This document shows, one piece after another, positions 1 through 24,168 of a DNA stretch of 64,000 nucleotides (positions are counted from its first letter, which is position 1; every line of letters starts with the position of its first letter). The DNA lies in the NCBI GenBank assembly GCA_029204225.1, contig CM055097.1, positions 33,232,804-33,296,803 of the forward strand. The letters run 5' to 3'. The notes beneath the pieces are model-generated. The model searched no databases. It had not been told where the DNA came from and was given only the letters and a program-made list of their open reading frames with translations. This DNA is from Diphasiastrum complanatum (Eukaryota; Streptophyta; Lycopodiopsida; Lycopodiales; Lycopodiaceae). The position numbers were made by a program, and so were the translations under genes.

Positions 1-1467
<1,467 letters not shown>

Positions 1468-4700: not shown

Positions 4701-5252
4701 GAGAAGATCCGTAGCTGCATGAAATTCGGTTTGTCTAGAGCTTGTGCGGGCGTTGAAATCACCTGCTAGTAAAATGGCACCCTGCTGAGAAAAGATAGCA
4801 ATATTATCTGAGAGAGCCTGAAAAGGGTCCCCGCCAAACTCAGCAAACACTGAGGTCTGTGGAGCAAAATAGCATACAGCTATATAGATGTCCTGAGGTA
4901 ATCCCAATAGTGAGCCAATAATGTGTAACCAAATATAGCGAGCGTATGGATCTTGTTTAACCATCTGAACTGTGGTGTCTCTGTATAAACAAGCTACTCC
5001 TCCAGATCCTCGACAAGTTTTTCCCCTAACAAATGGACGAAAAGCAGAATGCCAAGAGTACTCCTGTATATTTGGAAGAGGATGATATAAGGACTCATGA
5101 GTTTCAGCCAACAACAAAATGTCGCATTTTCTAATAAAATCAGCAAAGTCTCCGGCTGATGACGAAGATAAAAAACCATTACAATTCCAGAAGCCAAGTC
5201 TCAAATTGGTAGGGGATCTCGGGTAGCTTCTATATCCGGGGGCCCCTAGTTC
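1702..5252 (-). pseudogene. LINE A ORF2: endonuclease-reverse transcriptase, one frameshift
   Basis: This would encode the LINE replicase: an apurinic-like endonuclease that nicks the target, then a reverse transcriptase that copies the element RNA there. Visible in order are the endonuclease (WNCNG, AETHE, GDFNART, SDHS), the RT (FVDFRKAFDSV, GVKQGCPLSP, YADD), and a C-terminal zinc-knuckle-like CQLC...H...C. The frame is broken near 3758-3763, where LINE B reads GTGCTACGGGC and this copy GTGCATGGGC, a net loss of one base. The endonuclease half (3642-5204) and the RT half (1702-3645 plus a little upstream) are each still open. It is in the same frame as ORF1, directly after the UAG at 5253-5255, and has no ATG at its start. 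One lesion suggests recent inactivation. Confidence 0.92.
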
Positions 5253-5255
5253 CTA
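5212..5255 (-). promoter_or_regulatory. UAG plus downstream hairpin at the ORF1/ORF2 junction of LINE A
   Basis: On the minus strand the end of ORF1 reads CAA-TAG-GAA, then after a six-base spacer GGGGCCCCCGG, a loop, and CCCGAGATCCCC. The arms (5236-5246 and 5212-5223 on +) pair imperfectly here; the same site in LINE C pairs at 12 of 13 positions. The frame stays open from the TAG into the endonuclease. A role in stop-codon readthrough is inferred from this arrangement. Confidence 0.6.

Positions 5256-6211: not shown

Positions 6212-6274
<63 letters not shown>
6212..6274. repeat. (GA)n between LINE A 5' end and LINE B 3' end
   Basis: 63 bp of GA repeat. In LINE sense: LINE B 3' tail (TTAATAATAATAATTCTAATTCT), then (CT)n, then the 5' leader of LINE A. 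Confidence 0.98.
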
Positions 6275-6511: not shown

Positions 6512-9500
6512 CTAGCTACGAGCAAGCTGAAAGTAATGAGTGATGGTAGTAGCGGGTCGTGATGTAGGCTGGTGGGAGGCGTATGAAGATCTAGTAGCAC
6601 TGGATCGAGCCGAAACTCTCTGTGTCTTCGATCTTCGGACGGGGACGTCAAAATCCGCAACCGAAATATCCACTCTGTCTCGCTTCTGGAAGAACTGAGT
6701 AATGTGAGCCTGACTGGAATCCATATCTGAGAGCGTAGGTAGAAGTGAAGCTCGTAAAATATACATCTCTCTCAAAAGAAGACCCACACATCTAGCATCT
6801 GAATACTCGAGGAAGGAGCTCAACGTGAGGGGAATATTTCGGTATAAACAATGGTATCGTCCTCTAATCTCATAGTATACTGGGCAGCGAAAGATGAAAT
6901 GAAACTCATCTTCCACCTCCTGAAGAGAACAAAGCTGACATATCCGCTGCAATCTGGGAGTGTCTTTGTATCTACCTGTCTCGATAGCAAGCTGATGAGA
7001 AGAGACTCGAAGCTGTCCTATACGATATCTCAGACCAAAAGATAGCGTCTGTGTAAGATGAACTGGAAGAATAGGCAAGCCCGAAACGTCCAGCCGTAAA
7101 AGATGTGTGCCATAATAATGTAGCTTGACCCTATCTGGATCAGGATGTGACCATATAGTGCGTATGTAGCTCCGGTAAATCTGCTGTCTGATATAAGCAT
7201 GGGTTCCATTCGGAAGATCAAGTGCGGATAAACCCCAAGTCTGAAGAAGGGCTGAGACACTGCGATACCAAGAGTGCTTGGCTCCCTGATCTGCAAGGGT
7301 ACAAGATGAAGTGAGAGCAGCAACAATGTATCTGGAGGTATCTAGATCTGATACCCTGTGAAGAAAGGTGATGATCTGAAACATAGCACCAACAACTAAT
7401 GGAGGAGAAGCAAACTCGGCTAGTATGATATCATGTGGTACTGAGGGCTTAGCCCGAATTATCCTACTGAGCATGAGAATCTGGATACGAGTAAGATCTC
7501 TCCATGTATCGCGTGATAAATCAGGGCACCAAGTCTCAGCCGAATATAGCACAACTGGGGAGACAGTAGCAGAAAATAGTAGGCATCTGGTAGCAGGATC
7601 CTGCACATAATAAGTAGAGCAAAATCTCTCCATATGCACAAGAGCGGTATGCCCCTTGCGGAGCCTGGCGGTGGCTGCTGGTCGAAAAGTGAGTAGCGGA
7701 CCAGAGAAAAGAACTCCCAAATAGGTGTAGGAGGTCACGATCTCAATCGGTAGCCCGTCATAATAGAAAATCACATCTCTCATATGCTGTCTGTTGGTGT
7801 TAGTCTTCTTAAGGTTAACCGTCAATCCCCAACGCTGGCAAAAGTGATGTAAAGCAGAAAGGTGACTCTGTAAACCAGCTGCAGAGGATGAGAGGAGAAC
7901 CACATCATCAGCGTACAAGAGAATGGGGATAATAATGTCTGCTAGGGGACAGCCCTCTCCACCTTCCTCGCGAATAATCCGCTCGAGGTCATCTATATAT
8001 AGTGCAAAAAGAGTGGGTGATAAGGGGCAACCCTGCTTCACCCCAATGGTAGAATGTATCTGTGAGGACCAGCCACTACCATCTCTGAAACGTGCCAAGA
8101 CTCGCTCATATAAAGTAATGATCGCAGCAATAGTATCCTCTGAAAAGCCAAGTGAAGACAGTCTCTGGAAAAGAAGATGTCGTGGAACAGAGTCAAAAGC
8201 TTTGCGAAAATCCACAAAGCAACAGTAAATTCTCTGTTTCCGATGTCGAGCCTCCTCAATAATGCATCTCAAAATGAAGATCTGGTCTGAAGTAGAATAT
8301 CCCGGTCTGAAACCAGCTTGACCCATAGCGTGTAAACCCTCAGTTTCAGCAAAAGATCCAGTGACTGTCTGTAGTATAGAGCCATATATCTTAGCTAGAG
8401 TGTGACCAATCATAATGGTGCGGTAGTTTCCTACATTCATGGGATCACCTGCCTTGAGGATGGGGTGAAGGATATTAGTACACCAAGCCGTAGGAAAACC
8501 AGAAGTAACAGCTGTGTTAAAAACATGAGCAATGTAAGGGGAGATGAGATGTGCTACGGGCTTTAGGAAGTCTACACTTAAGGAGTCATAGTCAGTGGCT
8601 TTATTTAGTTTGGCATGTTTAATGGCGTTTTCAACCATGTCAGGGGTGAAAAGTGAGCAGTGGTCAGGTCTCGGTGAGAGTGAGGTAGGAGGAGAGTCCG
8701 TGGTATATAACTCCGTGGCATACTCGATCCAGGATTCGATGGCTATGGGGGCCAATGTTGAAGAGTGTCTGGTGAAATGTTTCCAGAAAAAAGAGGAGGA
8801 GGGTGAATCTAAAGAGTTGATCATTTTTTGGCAGAGTGATTGTAGGTACTTGATCTTCTTTGTTCTGGTGGTTCTATGATATTCTTTCTGGCATTGTTTG
8901 AGTGTGGCAGGGGAGTGTGACCTGGCATATGTCACATGATTGTGAAGAGAGCGGCATTCTGCATCATACCATCTGTTGTGAACACTTCTGTGAGATGATG
9001 TCGTTTTGGTGGGGAAGGATGAGGAAGCAGCAGCTAAGAGGGATGTAGAGAGAAAAGTGGCTTGCTGGTCAATTGGTGCCATGAACGGGAAGTTAGCGAG
9101 TAGTTGGGATAAGATTGTGGTGTAATTAGTGAATCCAGATTGGGTGAAAGGAATACGTTTATGAGTGGGAAGAGAGCAAGAAATTTGCAAAGAAGAGGTT
9201 ATGTGACCAAGTGACATGTGTAAGAGCGAGTGATCGGAAATGGTAGGGGGTGTGATGGAGAAATCAGAAATGTGAGAGATCAAAGCAGGTGATCCAATGA
9301 AGTAGTCGACCACACTATGTCCTCCACCATGAGGATAGCATGTATATGCTGATGAGGAAGGCCACTGTGTGAGGCCATTCAAAATGGCAAGAGCGTGTGT
9401 CTCTGCTAGAGTGATCAACTGCTCCCCGAAAGATGTAGCTGGAGTGTCTGCATCCTGTGATACCCGGTCTAGCCCCATATCCAAAGGGTAAAGCCTGAGA

Positions 9501-10000
9501 AGATCCGTAGCTGCATGAAATTCGGTTTGTCTAGAGCTTGTGCGGGCGTTGAAATCACCTGCTAGTAAAATGGAACCCTGCTGAGAAAAGATAGCAATAT
9601 CATCTGAGAGAGCCTGAAAAGGGTCCCCGCCAAACTCAGCAAACACTGAGGTCTGTGGAGCAAAATAGCATACAGCTATATAGATGTCCTGAGGTAATCC
9701 CAATAGTGAGCCAATAATGTGTAACCAAATATAGCGAGCGTATGGATCTTGTTTAACCATCTGAACTGTGGTGTCTCTGTATAAACAAGCTACTCCTCCA
9801 GATCCTCGACAAGTTTTTCCCCTAACAAATGGACGAAAAGCAGAATGCCAAGAGTACTCCTGTATATTTGGAAGAGGATGATATAAGGACTCATGAGTTT
9901 CAGCCAACAACAAAATGTCGCATTTTCTAATAAAATCAGCAAAGTCTCCGGCTGATGACGAAGATAAAAAACCATTACAATTCCAGAAGCCAAGTCTCAA
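6512..10000 (-). CDS. LINE B ORF2: intact endonuclease-reverse transcriptase
   Basis: An uninterrupted frame of 1,162 codons counted from a TTG at 10000; it is also open upstream to the ORF1 stop codon at 10049-10051. The endonuclease has WNCNG (6-10), AETHE (33-37), GDFN (148-151) and SDH (255-257). The reverse transcriptase has FVDFRKAFDSV (595-605), GVKQGCPLSP (653-662) and YADD (696-699). A zinc-knuckle-like set C1021, C1024, H1034, C1039 follows. The tail carries a canonical PIP box, QAHITQFF (1097-1104), and a second, weaker ITHYF near the end. The first methionine codon is 81, inside the endonuclease, so a normal AUG start would destroy that domain. Relative to LINE A it lacks five residues (KIMVF region) after the palm. 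Expression by readthrough from ORF1 is inferred. Confidence 0.93.
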   Translation of the reverse strand: MRLGFWNCNGFLSSSSAGDFADFIRKCDILLLAETHESLYHPLPNIQEYSWHSAFRPFVRGKTCRGSGGVACLYRDTTVQMVKQDPYARYIWLHIIGSLLGLPQDIYIAVCYFAPQTSVFAEFGGDPFQALSDDIAIFSQQGSILLAGDFNARTSSRQTEFHAATDLLRLYPLDMGLDRVSQDADTPATSFGEQLITLAETHALAILNGLTQWPSSSAYTCYPHGGGHSVVDYFIGSPALISHISDFSITPPTISDHSLLHMSLGHITSSLQISCSLPTHKRIPFTQSGFTNYTTILSQLLANFPFMAPIDQQATFLSTSLLAAASSSFPTKTTSSHRSVHNRWYDAECRSLHNHVTYARSHSPATLKQCQKEYHRTTRTKKIKYLQSLCQKMINSLDSPSSSFFWKHFTRHSSTLAPIAIESWIEYATELYTTDSPPTSLSPRPDHCSLFTPDMVENAIKHAKLNKATDYDSLSVDFLKPVAHLISPYIAHVFNTAVTSGFPTAWCTNILHPILKAGDPMNVGNYRTIMIGHTLAKIYGSILQTVTGSFAETEGLHAMGQAGFRPGYSTSDQIFILRCIIEEARHRKQRIYCCFVDFRKAFDSVPRHLLFQRLSSLGFSEDTIAAIITLYERVLARFRDGSGWSSQIHSTIGVKQGCPLSPTLFALYIDDLERIIREEGGEGCPLADIIIPILLYADDVVLLSSSAAGLQSHLSALHHFCQRWGLTVNLKKTNTNRQHMRDVIFYYDGLPIEIVTSYTYLGVLFSGPLLTFRPAATARLRKGHTALVHMERFCSTYYVQDPATRCLLFSATVSPVVLYSAETWCPDLSRDTWRDLTRIQILMLSRIIRAKPSVPHDIILAEFASPPLVVGAMFQIITFLHRVSDLDTSRYIVAALTSSCTLADQGAKHSWYRSVSALLQTWGLSALDLPNGTHAYIRQQIYRSYIRTIWSHPDPDRVKLHYYGTHLLRLDVSGLPILPVHLTQTLSFGLRYRIGQLRVSSHQLAIETGRYKDTPRLQRICQLCSLQEVEDEFHFIFRCPVYYEIRGRYHCLYRNIPLTLSSFLEYSDARCVGLLLREMYILRASLLPTLSDMDSSQAHITQFFQKRDRVDISVADFDVPVRRSKTQRVSARSSATRSSYASHQPTSRPATTITHYFQLARS
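6689..6712 (-). other. PIP-box motif in LINE B ORF2 C-terminus
   Basis: Codons for QAHITQFF match the PCNA-interacting consensus Q-x-x-(I/L/M)-x-x-(F/Y)-(F/Y) and are followed by QKR. LINE A has the same motif, LINE E has QPHITLFF and LINE L has QLLLTGFF. Confidence 0.6.
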
Positions 10001-10007
10001 ATTGGTA

Positions 10008-10051
10008 GGGGATCTCGGGTAGCTTCTATATCCGGGGGCCCCTAGTTCCTA
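10008..10051 (-). promoter_or_regulatory. UAG plus downstream hairpin at the ORF1/ORF2 junction of LINE B
   Basis: Same sequence as the junction in LINE A: CAA-TAG-GAACTA then GGGGCCCCCGG, with CCCGAGATCCCC as the partner arm. The reading frame is open through the junction into ORF2. Confidence 0.6.
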
Positions 10052-10957
10052 TTGTGGAAGGTCGAAAAATCTCGGTTTCCCGTCAATAAAAACAACCCTT
10101 TGCCCTTTCTCTTTCGCTTCAAGGATAATCTTTTTTCTTGCCAACCATTGAGTATTTGTTAAGTCATCATCCATATAAATGAAAGTACCTTTAAGCTTTG
10201 CCCTAAGCCGAAGGGCAGCATTGCGTTGTGAAAGCGAGCGGAACTTGATAAACAAAACATTGTCATCAAATTTACTGCGCCAAGCAGTATCAAAACCGTC
10301 AGCCACATGAGATAACTTGGAAATGAGCAAATCCGTAGCTTCTTCCAACGGTTTTCCACCATTGGCAATGCCTCTTACTCTAATGTTAAAGGCTTTTTTG
10401 GCCCTTCTGGCTTGTTCACCCAAAACTGTCTCCAAATCGTTTTCCTTCGGAAAAGATGAAATCTGAGAGTGATTACCTTGCTTAAGGATCGATGTCGTTT
10501 CTTCAACCTGTTTTGCGAGTGATGAGAGTTTGCTGCCCATATCATCCGGTTTGAAGAGTGCTGCCCACGTTTTCGTCTCCTCGACTTGTTTCTCCAAGCT
10601 ATTGATCTTGTTGGAAGTCTCCTCCAAGGCACTTTTTTCTGCAATTCGTTGCTTAAGATATATATTTTCTTGCTCAAGCTGCTCCACACGTTCCGTGACA
10701 CCAAAAAGATCCTTAGCTAACTTGCTATTTTCAGCTTCAAAGAGGTGTAGTTGTTTCTTAAGTCCAAGAATTTCTTGCCGGATAAAACTAAGATCATAAG
10801 CAAAAAGACTTTCGGTAGGTTTGGAAGGAGTGTAGTCAATGGCAGCCATGTTGATAGTTTCTGTCACCGAAGACGGCTCCTCCATCACTACCGGTGATGG
10901 GGGGGTGTCCAACAGGGAGGGGGGTGTAAGAACACCCTCCTTTTTCTTAGGTGCCAT
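10049..10957 (-). CDS. LINE B ORF1: L1 ORF1p-like RNA-binding protein
   Basis: A 302-residue protein starting MAPKKKEG, 26 nt after the (CT)n tract. It has a basic and proline-rich N-terminus, a long coiled coil of roughly residues 52-155 (IRQEILGLKKQLHLF, then EQLEQENIYLKQR), an RRM-like region from IRVRGIANG at about 195, and a basic C-terminal domain with KGTFIYMDDDLTNTQW and KKIILEAKEKGQR. This is the layout of L1 ORF1 proteins (Transposase_22 family), which bind the element RNA and chaperone it at the target. It keeps the 33-residue coiled-coil segment that LINE A has lost. It ends LPQ-TAG and the frame continues directly into ORF2. Confidence 0.87.
   Translation of the reverse strand: MAPKKKEGVLTPPSLLDTPPSPVVMEEPSSVTETINMAAIDYTPSKPTESLFAYDLSFIRQEILGLKKQLHLFEAENSKLAKDLFGVTERVEQLEQENIYLKQRIAEKSALEETSNKINSLEKQVEETKTWAALFKPDDMGSKLSSLAKQVEETTSILKQGNHSQISSFPKENDLETVLGEQARRAKKAFNIRVRGIANGGKPLEEATDLLISKLSHVADGFDTAWRSKFDDNVLFIKFRSLSQRNAALRLRAKLKGTFIYMDDDLTNTQWLARKKIILEAKEKGQRVVFIDGKPRFFDLPQ

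Positions 10958-10983: not shown

Positions 10984-11062
<79 letters not shown>
10984..11062. repeat. (GA)n at the 5' edge of LINE B
   Basis: 79 bp of GA repeat with one AA interruption near 11010. In LINE sense it is (CT)n ending 26 nt before the ORF1 start codon. Confidence 0.97.
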
Positions 11063-20028: not shown

Positions 20029-20072
20029 TAGGGATTTGGGGGCCCCGGGCATGGGAGCATCCCGGGCCCCCC
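20029..20072 (+). promoter_or_regulatory. UAG plus downstream hairpin after LINE D ORF1
   Basis: TGC-TAG-GGATTT, then GGGGGCCCCGGGC, an 8-10-base loop and CCCGGGCCCCC. The arms pair over about 11 bp with one bulged C. Spacer length (six bases) and position match LINEs A, B and C although the sequence differs. Confidence 0.6.
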
Positions 20073-21900: not shown

Positions 21901-24165
21901 AACACCCAGGTATGTGTAAGATGCCACTATCTATAGAAGCTGTCCATCAAAATAGAACATAGTGTCTCTCATATGCTGCCTGTTGGTGTTAAACACCATA
22001 ACCTTAGTCTGACCAATGTGCACACAAAAAGTATACAAGGCATCTAGATGTCGCTGAAGTCCTGCAGCTGAACTAGAGAGTAGAACCACATCATTTGCAT
22101 GAAGAAGGATAGGGATAATAAGATCTGCAAGAGGACAGCCATCTCCACCTTCTTCCCGAATGATCCGCTCAAGGTCGTCAATGTATAGAGCAAATAGGGT
22201 GGGTGATAAGGGACATCCCTGCTTTACTCCGACCGTACTATGAATATATGAAGACCATCCATCTCCATCACGGAATCGGGCCAAAACTCTCTCGTATAAT
22301 GTGATGATAGCAGCAATGACTTCTTGTGAGAAACCAAGGGATGCCAAACGTTGGAGCAGCAAGTGTCTCGGAACCGAATCAAATGCTTTGCGGAAGTCCA
22401 CAAAGCAACAATAGACTCTCTGTTTCCTGAACTTCGCCGCCTCAATGATACACCTCAGTATGAATATCTGGTCCGCTGTGGAATAGCCTGCTCTAAAACT
22501 TGCCTATCCCATAGCATATAACTCCTTTGTCTCCGCATAAGAGCTGATGATAGACTGCATAACCGAACCATAGAGCGTAGCCATAGTGTGACTGATCATA
22601 ATAGTACAATAGTTGTCTACAATCAGAGGATCACCAACCTTAAGATAGGGTGCAATAGGTTAGTACACCAGGGTGTGGGAAGGCCAAAAACAACAGATTG
22701 GTTAAAAACGTGGGAGATGTATGGAATTTTTCATAGCGTTTTCAATCATGGACGGAGTGAAAAGGGTGAATTTTGAAGGTTGCGATGAGAGAGAGATGGA
22801 AGGAGAGTCAATTGTATAAATTTTTGCAGCATAGTCAATCCAAGATTCAATGGCAATAGGAGCTGGCATACACGAGTTCTTAAAAAACATCTTCCAAAAG
22901 AAGGTAGAAGAAGAGGAGTCCAAATAATCAATGAGTTTCTGTGCCAGAGACTAAAAGTACGTAGTCTTTTTCCACAAAGTCATTCTATGGTATTCTTTTT
23001 GTTTAGATGCTAAGGTGTCGGGAGAATGGTATTGAGCGTGAACAACCTGCTTGTGTAGAGAGAGGCACTCATCATCATACCATCTATTGTAAGTTCGTTT
23101 ATGAGATGAGAAGATTTTGGGAGGATATGTAGTATTGGCTGAGTGAAGAAGCGACTGAGATAAAAAGGCGGCTTGTTGGTCTACTGAAGATGAGAAGGGG
23201 AAATCGTTGAGTAGTGTGGCCAGAGAGGAAGTGTACATAGGAAGACCAAGTGGAGAGAAGGATGGACGATGGTGACGTGTGGAATGAGGTGTCGTAACAG
23301 TACCACGAGTAGCACGGCCCAGAGACAGGAGCAATAGAGACTGATTAGAAATGGTAGGGTGCATAATATGAGAAGTATGAAGAAATGGAATCAAGGCTGG
23401 TGAGCCAATGAAGTAGTCAACAACGCTGTGTCCACCCCCGTGCAGATGACAGGTAAACAGAGATGATGACGGCCATCGAGATAGGCCATTCAAAATGGCT
23501 AACGACTGAGCTTCTGCAAGTCCAATCAACTGCTCTCCAAAGTGTGTAGCCGGGGTATCTGCGTCCTGAGAAGTCCTATCCAAACCCACATCCAAAACCT
23601 GAATATGTAGAAAATCACTATCTGCATGAAACTCTATCTGCTGGGTGCTGGTACGAGCATTGAAATCTCTTGCTAAAAGAATAAGGCCCTGTTGTGCAAA
23701 GCTGGCTGTATCATCAGAGAGAGCTTGGAAGGGGTCACCACCATAGTTTGCAAAAGCTGATGTCTGAGGTGCAAAATAACAAACTGTGATAAATAGATCT
23801 TGAGGTAGCCCCAAGTAGTGACCAAAAAACTGTAACCAAATAAATCGTGCAAATGGATCACTTTTGAGCAGCTTAAAATGAGTACGATAAACTTCCTTGG
23901 TAAGACATGCAACACCACCAGAGCCACGTGTGGTTTGTCCTCTAACGAAAGGCCTGTATGCTGAATGGCAGGAATAATCCTGAATGGCTGGAAGAGGTCG
24001 ATATAGTGATTCATGAGTCTCTGCTAAGAGAAAAATATCATATTTCTGCAAAAAAGAGTGAAAGTCTCCTGCTGAAGAAGATGAAAGCACACCGTTACAA
24101 TTCCAAAAACCAATTCGTAATGGCTGAGGGGATCTCGGGCTGTTTTGCCCGGGATCCCCGACTTC
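21901..24165 (-). pseudogene. LINE C ORF2: endonuclease and RT, degraded
   Basis: Minus-strand LINE replicase of a lineage clearly diverged from A and B. The endonuclease half is open from the ORF1 stop codon to about 22951, with WNCNG, AETHE, DFNART and a changed SNQS where SDHS is expected. The RT half keeps FRKAFDSVPRH, GVKQGCPLSP and HANDVVLLSS (YADD altered to HAND), so it is catalytically dead. Frame breaks lie near 22950, 22700 and 22400. It ends at 21905 against gypsy gag sequence, losing the thumb, zinc knuckle and tail. No ATG occurs in frame in the first two hundred or so codons, so this lineage could not start ORF2 at an AUG either. Confidence 0.88.
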
Positions 24166-24168
24166 CTA
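24128..24168 (-). promoter_or_regulatory. UAG plus downstream hairpin at the ORF1/ORF2 junction of LINE C
   Basis: Minus strand: CAA-TAG-GAAGTC, then GGGGATCCCGGGC, loop AAAACA, GCCCGAGATCCCC. The 13-bp arms (24147-24159 and 24128-24140 on +) pair except for one C-A mismatch. This is the best-preserved hairpin of the four junctions. ORF1 and ORF2 are in the same frame across the TAG. Confidence 0.65.

Follow-up and report, generated by a model that had tools for sequence, protein, structure and literature searches.

Related families of L1-like LINEs in the clubmoss Diphasiastrum complanatum end their first open reading frame (ORF1) with a UAG beyond which the same frame runs on into an endonuclease and a reverse transcriptase (ORF2), and programmed readthrough of this UAG to yield an ORF1-ORF2 fusion is, judging from the sequences, the best explanation and a probable one. 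Distant families keep the shared frame, the UAG, and a six-base spacer after it; the stem that follows is under selection between them, and no ORF2 AUG precedes the first endonuclease motif. A preliminary description of part of this genome had proposed that ORF2 is made as such a fusion, and these features, which extend to more families than it described, lend its proposal support. We posit that most ribosomes would terminate at the ORF1 UAG and release the ORF1 protein, and that a minority would decode the UAG as an amino acid, aided by the G that comes next and by the stem that starts after the six-base spacer (a pseudoknot may be the stimulating structure in the B families). Continuing in the same frame, this minority would produce a fusion that carries both the endonuclease and the reverse transcriptase. 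The switch would belong to a whole group of related L1-like families in Diphasiastrum; that readthrough occurs, at some rate, and that the fusion is the active enzyme is what we infer.

In the 64-kb window at G000:C6:33232804-33296803, by which we mean the whole stretch of DNA analyzed, the preliminary description had placed ORF1 ends of the form CAA-TAG-GAA, with one frame onward into the endonuclease, in LINEs A, B, and C, and all three are found there. Only LINE B has an unbroken ORF1-UAG-ORF2 arrangement in the window. All of its features lie on the minus strand: the 302-aa ORF1 of this L1-like LINE (10049..10957) ends CAA-UAG, with the UAG at 10049-10051, and is followed 3′ of the UAG by the spacer GAACUA (10043..10048) and by a hairpin that is weak by shuffling and recoding (10008..10042); the ORF2 frame, encoding endonuclease and reverse transcriptase (PF03372, PF00078), is open for 1178 codons from the UAG to the next stop (6512..10048). 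The LINE A junction (5212..5255, minus strand; UAG at 5253-5255, plus hairpin) is near-identical to that of B, and its ORF2 is broken; A and B are 98.9% identical across 4400 bases and were therefore counted once. LINE C, also on the minus strand, is decayed, its protein being about 59% identical; its UAG (24166..24168) is followed by a six-base spacer (24160-24165) and a strong hairpin with 12 of 13 pairs (24128..24159). The hairpin that had been described after a six-base spacer was located in A, B, and C; it is strong in C and weak in A and B. On the plus strand, the reported TAG-GGATTT of LINE D was found at 20029: this remnant (20029..20072) retains UAG, the spacer GGAUUU, and a hairpin, with ORF1 present in two frames and no endonuclease after the junction. 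D-type copies outside the window do carry an endonuclease, which is in frame in L107.

The element is an L1-like LINE, a non-LTR retrotransposon. Above the cut-off, ORF2 of LINE B matches Pfam PF03372 (AP-type endonuclease) and then PF00078 (reverse transcriptase), and the PDB matches of the reverse transcriptase are R2 and LINE-1 ORF2p. The ORF1 product of LINE B shares 97% identity with the D. complanatum protein O6H91_02G138100. AlphaFold models it, at a moderate mean pLDDT of 62.5, with a coiled coil, an RRM, and a C-terminal domain, and the best six Foldseek matches to this model are human LINE-1 ORF1p (best E 6.8e-7, with TM-scores of only 0.23-0.37); sequence searches with ORF1 alone found no LINE-1 ORF1p.

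The 1.74-Gb D. complanatum genome was searched for further copies, and 82 junctions were assembled: 70 genome copies, LINEs B and D of the window, and 10 D/F junctions. LINE C of the window is included as L034, and LINE A was omitted as a copy of B. The 70 copies comprise 30 loci and 40 places picked for divergence from 139 matches of a protein query across the C junction, a search that favors unbroken frames; the 10 D/F junctions were picked from 150 matches of a D query. Family labels (B, B2, C, Cb, Ci, E, E2, E3, D, D2, and F) were assigned by sequence likeness. The stop codon is UAG in 76 of the 82 junctions, UAA in 6, and UGA in none (64, 6, and 0 in the 70 genome copies read base by base), and every family representative retains UAG. 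The base 3′ of the stop is G in 80 of 82 and A in the other two. Two extra copies were chosen for their absent TAG: L115 has UAA, and L114, a decayed copy, has the sense codon TCA, so that UGA occurs in 0 of the 84 lycophyte junctions examined. Inspected by eye, 131 of the 139 C-query matches contain at least one TAG; among the eight without, one lies past the junction, five have TAA and are among or like the 70, and two are L114 and L115. Altogether, UAA replaces UAG in seven examined copies, four of family E and three of family C (L042, L049, L068, L069, L076, L096, and L115).

The same stop recurs in larger counts. The genome contains 297 exact matches to a 28-mer of the B junction, and CAA-NNN-GAACTA, in which the stop is left free, has 306 places in the B family, with TAG in 100 of 100 among the matches listed. 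Twenty plus-strand B copies, found via a pattern containing TAG, were fetched; ORF2 is open for 1182-1183 codons in 11 of them, and 10 of those 11 have an ORF1, too, that stays open for 290 or more. The UAG is therefore a feature of the intact family. With the D query, at least one TAG lies inside 148 of the best 150 scored matches and exactly one stop, a TAG, inside 114, in tallies counted by eye from rows some of which look duplicated; the two without TAG end before the stop. All ten short D/F junctions have TAG. Family F, sampled at two junctions, is abundant outside the window (e.g., G000:C3:38603211-38603474); among the D-query matches listed, the frame around its TAG is open for as many as 1572 aa, and some copies exceed 1000 codons.

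The frame is kept as well. All 70 copies, which come from the search that favors unbroken frames, have a single frame across the junction, and the endonuclease follows in the same frame in 7 of 10 D/F junctions (it is shifted in L106, L109, and L112), which gives 77 of 80 collected genome junctions. Copies with ORF1 and ORF2 out of frame, which the preliminary description had looked to as evidence against readthrough, are in this sample three D/F junctions. Linkers within the C, E, and B groups differ in length by whole codons; in D2, three copies are shifted. This conservation spans considerable divergence: B and C still keep CAA-UAG-GAA at a pS of about 0.8 in both ORFs, and across seven distant pairs (C-E, B2-E, B-E, B2-C, B-C, Cb-E, and E-E3) pS ranges from 0.57 to 0.87 in ORF1 and from 0.54 to 0.88 in the endonuclease. 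Synonymous sites are near saturation between distant families, and the stop is nevertheless kept.

ORF2 has no start codon of the usual kind near the stop. An in-frame AUG is absent from the first 30 codons in 69 of 71 junctions (the 70 copies and LINE B of the window), none being close to or overlapping the ORF1 stop; the two exceptions have it at codon 27 and codon 30, respectively. In the translated junctions, the WNCNG motif of the endonuclease falls at about codons 21-27 after the stop, and a conserved ORF2 AUG, also sought in other copies as a sign against readthrough, does not occur ahead of it. In A and B the first in-frame AUG is codon 97 past the UAG, not codon 81 as had been given for LINE B; in LINE C it is codon 268, in keeping with the statement that the first couple of hundred codons hold none.

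The strongest rival is that ribosomes terminate and then reinitiate at a non-AUG codon shortly past the UAG, kept in place there by the hairpin as by the downstream structure of SART1; we consider it improbable. Reinitiation is known for LINE ORF2: SART1 ORF2 is made by reinitiation at an overlapping stop-start site with a downstream structure, and reinitiation of LINE-1 ORF2 is proposed after a 63-nt spacer (PMC5972666), while an excerpt on LINE-1 describes ORF2 initiation that is independent of its AUG (PMC5009743). A downstream stem is compatible with reinitiation and readthrough alike. Reinitiation, however, needs neither equal ORF1 and ORF2 frames nor a preference for UAG over UAA or UGA, and the representatives keep both; the 69 of 71 junctions that lack a nearby in-frame AUG also speak against it. 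A further point comes from codons +15 to +20: in each of the seven distant pairs pS is higher than pN there, although these codons contain just 4-5 synonymous sites.

Returning to readthrough, its other component would be the RNA stem. Pairing begins at base +7 past the stop in most of the distinct sequences, and family representatives form 11-12 pairs with the spacer held unpaired; the stem is lost in a few decayed copies, L047 and L097 among them. The median shuffle z of 53 distinct 45-mers is -3.0, and when the same peptide is recoded synonymously, 12 of 13 family representatives have P no higher than 0.021, the exception being B with 0.19. The LINE C hairpin reaches z of -5.9 and -5.5 against 1000 shuffles, and that of LINE D -1.4 and -2.2 (also 1000 shuffles), with P of 0.004 by recoding. 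In the seven distant pairs, pS falls to 0-0.39 in stem codons +1 to +14, which shows that synonymous change in the stem is constrained between distant families. In the same codons and pairs pN is 0.09-0.30, from which we conclude that selection there acts mainly on the RNA. The spacers ahead of the stem (GAAGUC, GGAUUU, GAACUA, GUAGUU, etc.) include no purine-rich octanucleotide, and a search of the junction against Rfam gave four matches, all far under the gathering score.

With every family folded in a register of its own, the identity of the pairs changes at four positions: at pair 11, C has A-U, D and D2 have G-C, E3 has C-G, and F has U-G; pairs 12 and 14 are each U-A or C-G; and pair 15 is C-G or U-A. 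CpG sites mutate fast, and the change at pair 15 is weak evidence because it sits in such sites. The preliminary description held that the hairpin differs between lineages while spacer, frame, and stop are kept; the changing pairs bear out its first half, and against the second stand UAA in 6 of 82 junctions and three shifted frames. Its suggestion to look for covariation in the hairpin was not borne out column by column. On 48 rows, 82.5% of cells are paired, versus at most 59.5% when the rows are slid, and shuffles matched the paired cells in 73 of 500 trials, the two-sided changes in 129 of 500, and the covariation score in 63 of 500; RNAalifold on 12 rows found just one pair with a two-sided change. 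Column covariation, not above shuffles, was dropped as proof of the stem, and the pair changes are visible in the own-register folds. Nor was dN/dS across the hairpin taken to prove coding, since synonymous sites there are themselves constrained; of the proposed check for purifying selection across the UAG, there stands the excess of pS over pN just past the stem, on its few sites.

Selection on RNA does not by itself imply translation, and the stem could in principle serve a different end. Were ORF2 expressed from a separate or spliced transcript, the UAG and hairpin might act, for example, in RNA packaging or on the reverse-transcription template. The position of the stem at the seventh base past the stop in most distinct sequences and a frame that is kept open both argue against this, as does the absence, in most copies, of an AUG ahead of the first endonuclease motif, and we regard it as very unlikely. 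Decay or chance, i.e., a single nonsense mutation in a formerly continuous frame that was then copied with the family, is scarcely credible and was dropped because intact copies and several families carry the UAG: many collected copies are indeed decayed with extra stops, and one has a sense codon at the junction, but the same stop stands in near-saturated distant families, and among 34 protein matches of up to 1254 aa (lengths to 1.75 times the query were admitted), none bridges ORF1 and ORF2 as a full-length fused protein.

In the B family, the hairpin itself is weak. Its z values in A/B are -0.7 and -1.6 against 1000 shuffles, synonymous recoding gives nonsignificant P values of 0.22 and 0.19, and the B stem has lost two pairs relative to B2. 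Between B and B2 there is no synonymous drop over the stem (pS 0.42 vs 0.56 and 0.40). The B loop can, however, pair across nine bases with the Gly-Phe-Trp codons at the start of the endonuclease. The strands of this candidate pairing, both on the minus strand, are UAGAAGCUA in the loop (10020..10028) and its possible partner UGGCUUCUG downstream (9984..9992). Against shuffled downstream sequence, the possible second stem has P of 0.004 in B and 0.044 in B2, and of at least 0.117 in the other 13 of 15 representatives. If formed, the B pairing would make a compact pseudoknot resembling that of murine leukemia virus, which we offer as a proposal only. A pseudoknot common to all families was considered and rejected, P being below 0.05 only in B and B2 of the 15 representatives; a pairing between loop and downstream sequence in LINE C, at first seemingly compensatory, failed the test against shuffled downstream sequence.

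Several observations count against readthrough: the weak B hairpin, covariation that shuffles match, some copies with UAA or a shifted frame, a spacer that is not the purine octamer, methionines in relatives, and, in the fern-like relative L003, an in-frame AUG ten codons past the stop and no strong stem. The methionines concern proteins elsewhere. The best endonuclease matches are 33-53% identical, and in several of these relatives the endonuclease begins, at a predicted start, with a methionine, e.g., in P0042 of the fern Adiantum nelumboides.

Viral readthrough signals offer the nearest comparison. As summarized in one source (PMC11166343), type I consists of UAG CAR YYA; type II, found in plant RNA viruses, of UGA with CGG or CUA directly after it and in many cases a stem-loop at a distance of about 6-12 nt; and type III of UAG, a purine octamer, and a pseudoknot. 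Set against this scheme, the lycophyte signal is a hybrid: its UAG is that of type III, and its spacing and stem are those of type II. With gag-pol of gammaretroviruses such as murine leukemia virus (type III), it shares the UAG, a reverse transcriptase ORF in the same frame, a short spacer, a 3′ RNA structure and, in B and B2, a possible compact pseudoknot; it differs in that the element is a LINE, the spacer has six bases and no purine octamer, and most representatives have a plain stem. Type II is approached by the clubmoss families in stem-loop distance and by a fern-like relative, L003, in its UGA-CGG, whereas the lycophyte families use UAG and L003 has no strong stem. Type I is unlike the lycophyte junctions, in all 82 of which the next base is G or A.

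Among retrotransposons, the passage on Tj1, an LTR element of Schizosaccharomyces japonicus, describes an in-frame stop thought to be suppressed between two ORFs, the second of which (POL) lacks a start codon, just as here; Tj1 belongs to another class and host, and that passage mentions no stem (PMC5911963). The same source has the Dictyostelium non-LTR elements TRE5-A and TRE3-A translate ORF2 via a -1 frameshift, which is likewise recoding for ORF2 in a non-LTR element, but not stop readthrough (PMC5911963). SART1 and LINE-1 resemble the clubmoss elements in having ORF2 downstream of ORF1 on one RNA, SART1 also in its downstream structure, and are not described in the portion consulted as reading through an in-frame UAG (PMC5972666). 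LINE-1 further has an ORF1p that the B-element ORF1 resembles. In titles and abstract openings of the open-licence literature, no report of LINE ORF2 production by stop readthrough was found.

LINE ORF2 protein is scarce beside ORF1 protein. How ORF2 is produced is only partly understood, and the routes described in the excerpts cited above are reinitiation, AUG-independent initiation, and frameshifting. A retrovirus-like readthrough switch in LINE families would add a further route, one that would fix the ratio of ORF1 to ORF2 and, through the fusion, tether the enzyme to an RNA-binding protein. The clubmoss families also provide a number of divergent UAG-stem pairs that occur naturally in a land plant and can be used directly in reporters, and the relative L003 supplies a different leaky stop. 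More tentatively, and with somewhat less conviction than doubt, we suggest that a vascular-plant LINE clade might make its endonuclease and reverse transcriptase only as a fusion, through a dedicated stop-recoding module exchanged in evolution: UGA-CGG in the fern-like relative; UAG, a six-base spacer, and a stem in the clubmoss; and a pseudoknot in the young B family. If true, a gag-pol strategy like that of retroviruses would have arisen in LINEs.

L003 comes from a scan of prokaryote genomes, in which a GTDB MAG titled uncultured Trichormus holds plant-like LINE contigs (L001-L003). Since this cyanobacterium lives in the fern Azolla, these contigs probably come from a fern host such as Azolla. 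In L003, ORF1 ends UGA-CGG and the same frame enters the endonuclease, with an in-frame AUG ten codons past the stop; it is a single copy with a decayed ORF2, and an L003 query of that MAG gave one other match only, which does not span the junction. No relatives were found in viral contigs. Among plant proteins, the Diphasiastrum gene model P0020 combines Pfam domains of a host enzyme with LINE endonuclease sequence at its C-terminus and is probably a gene-model fusion.

The 3′ ends of the fetched B copies carry TAA- and TAATTC-type repeats in 20 of 20. In all 20 (L014-L033), a (TC)n microsatellite lies within 110 bases of the 3′ end, after the TAATTC-type tail, against 16 of 581 control blocks of the window. 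LINEs A and B themselves stand head to tail within TC tracts (window positions 1354-1463, 6212-6273, and 10984-11062), and TC microsatellites look like a preferred target of the B family.
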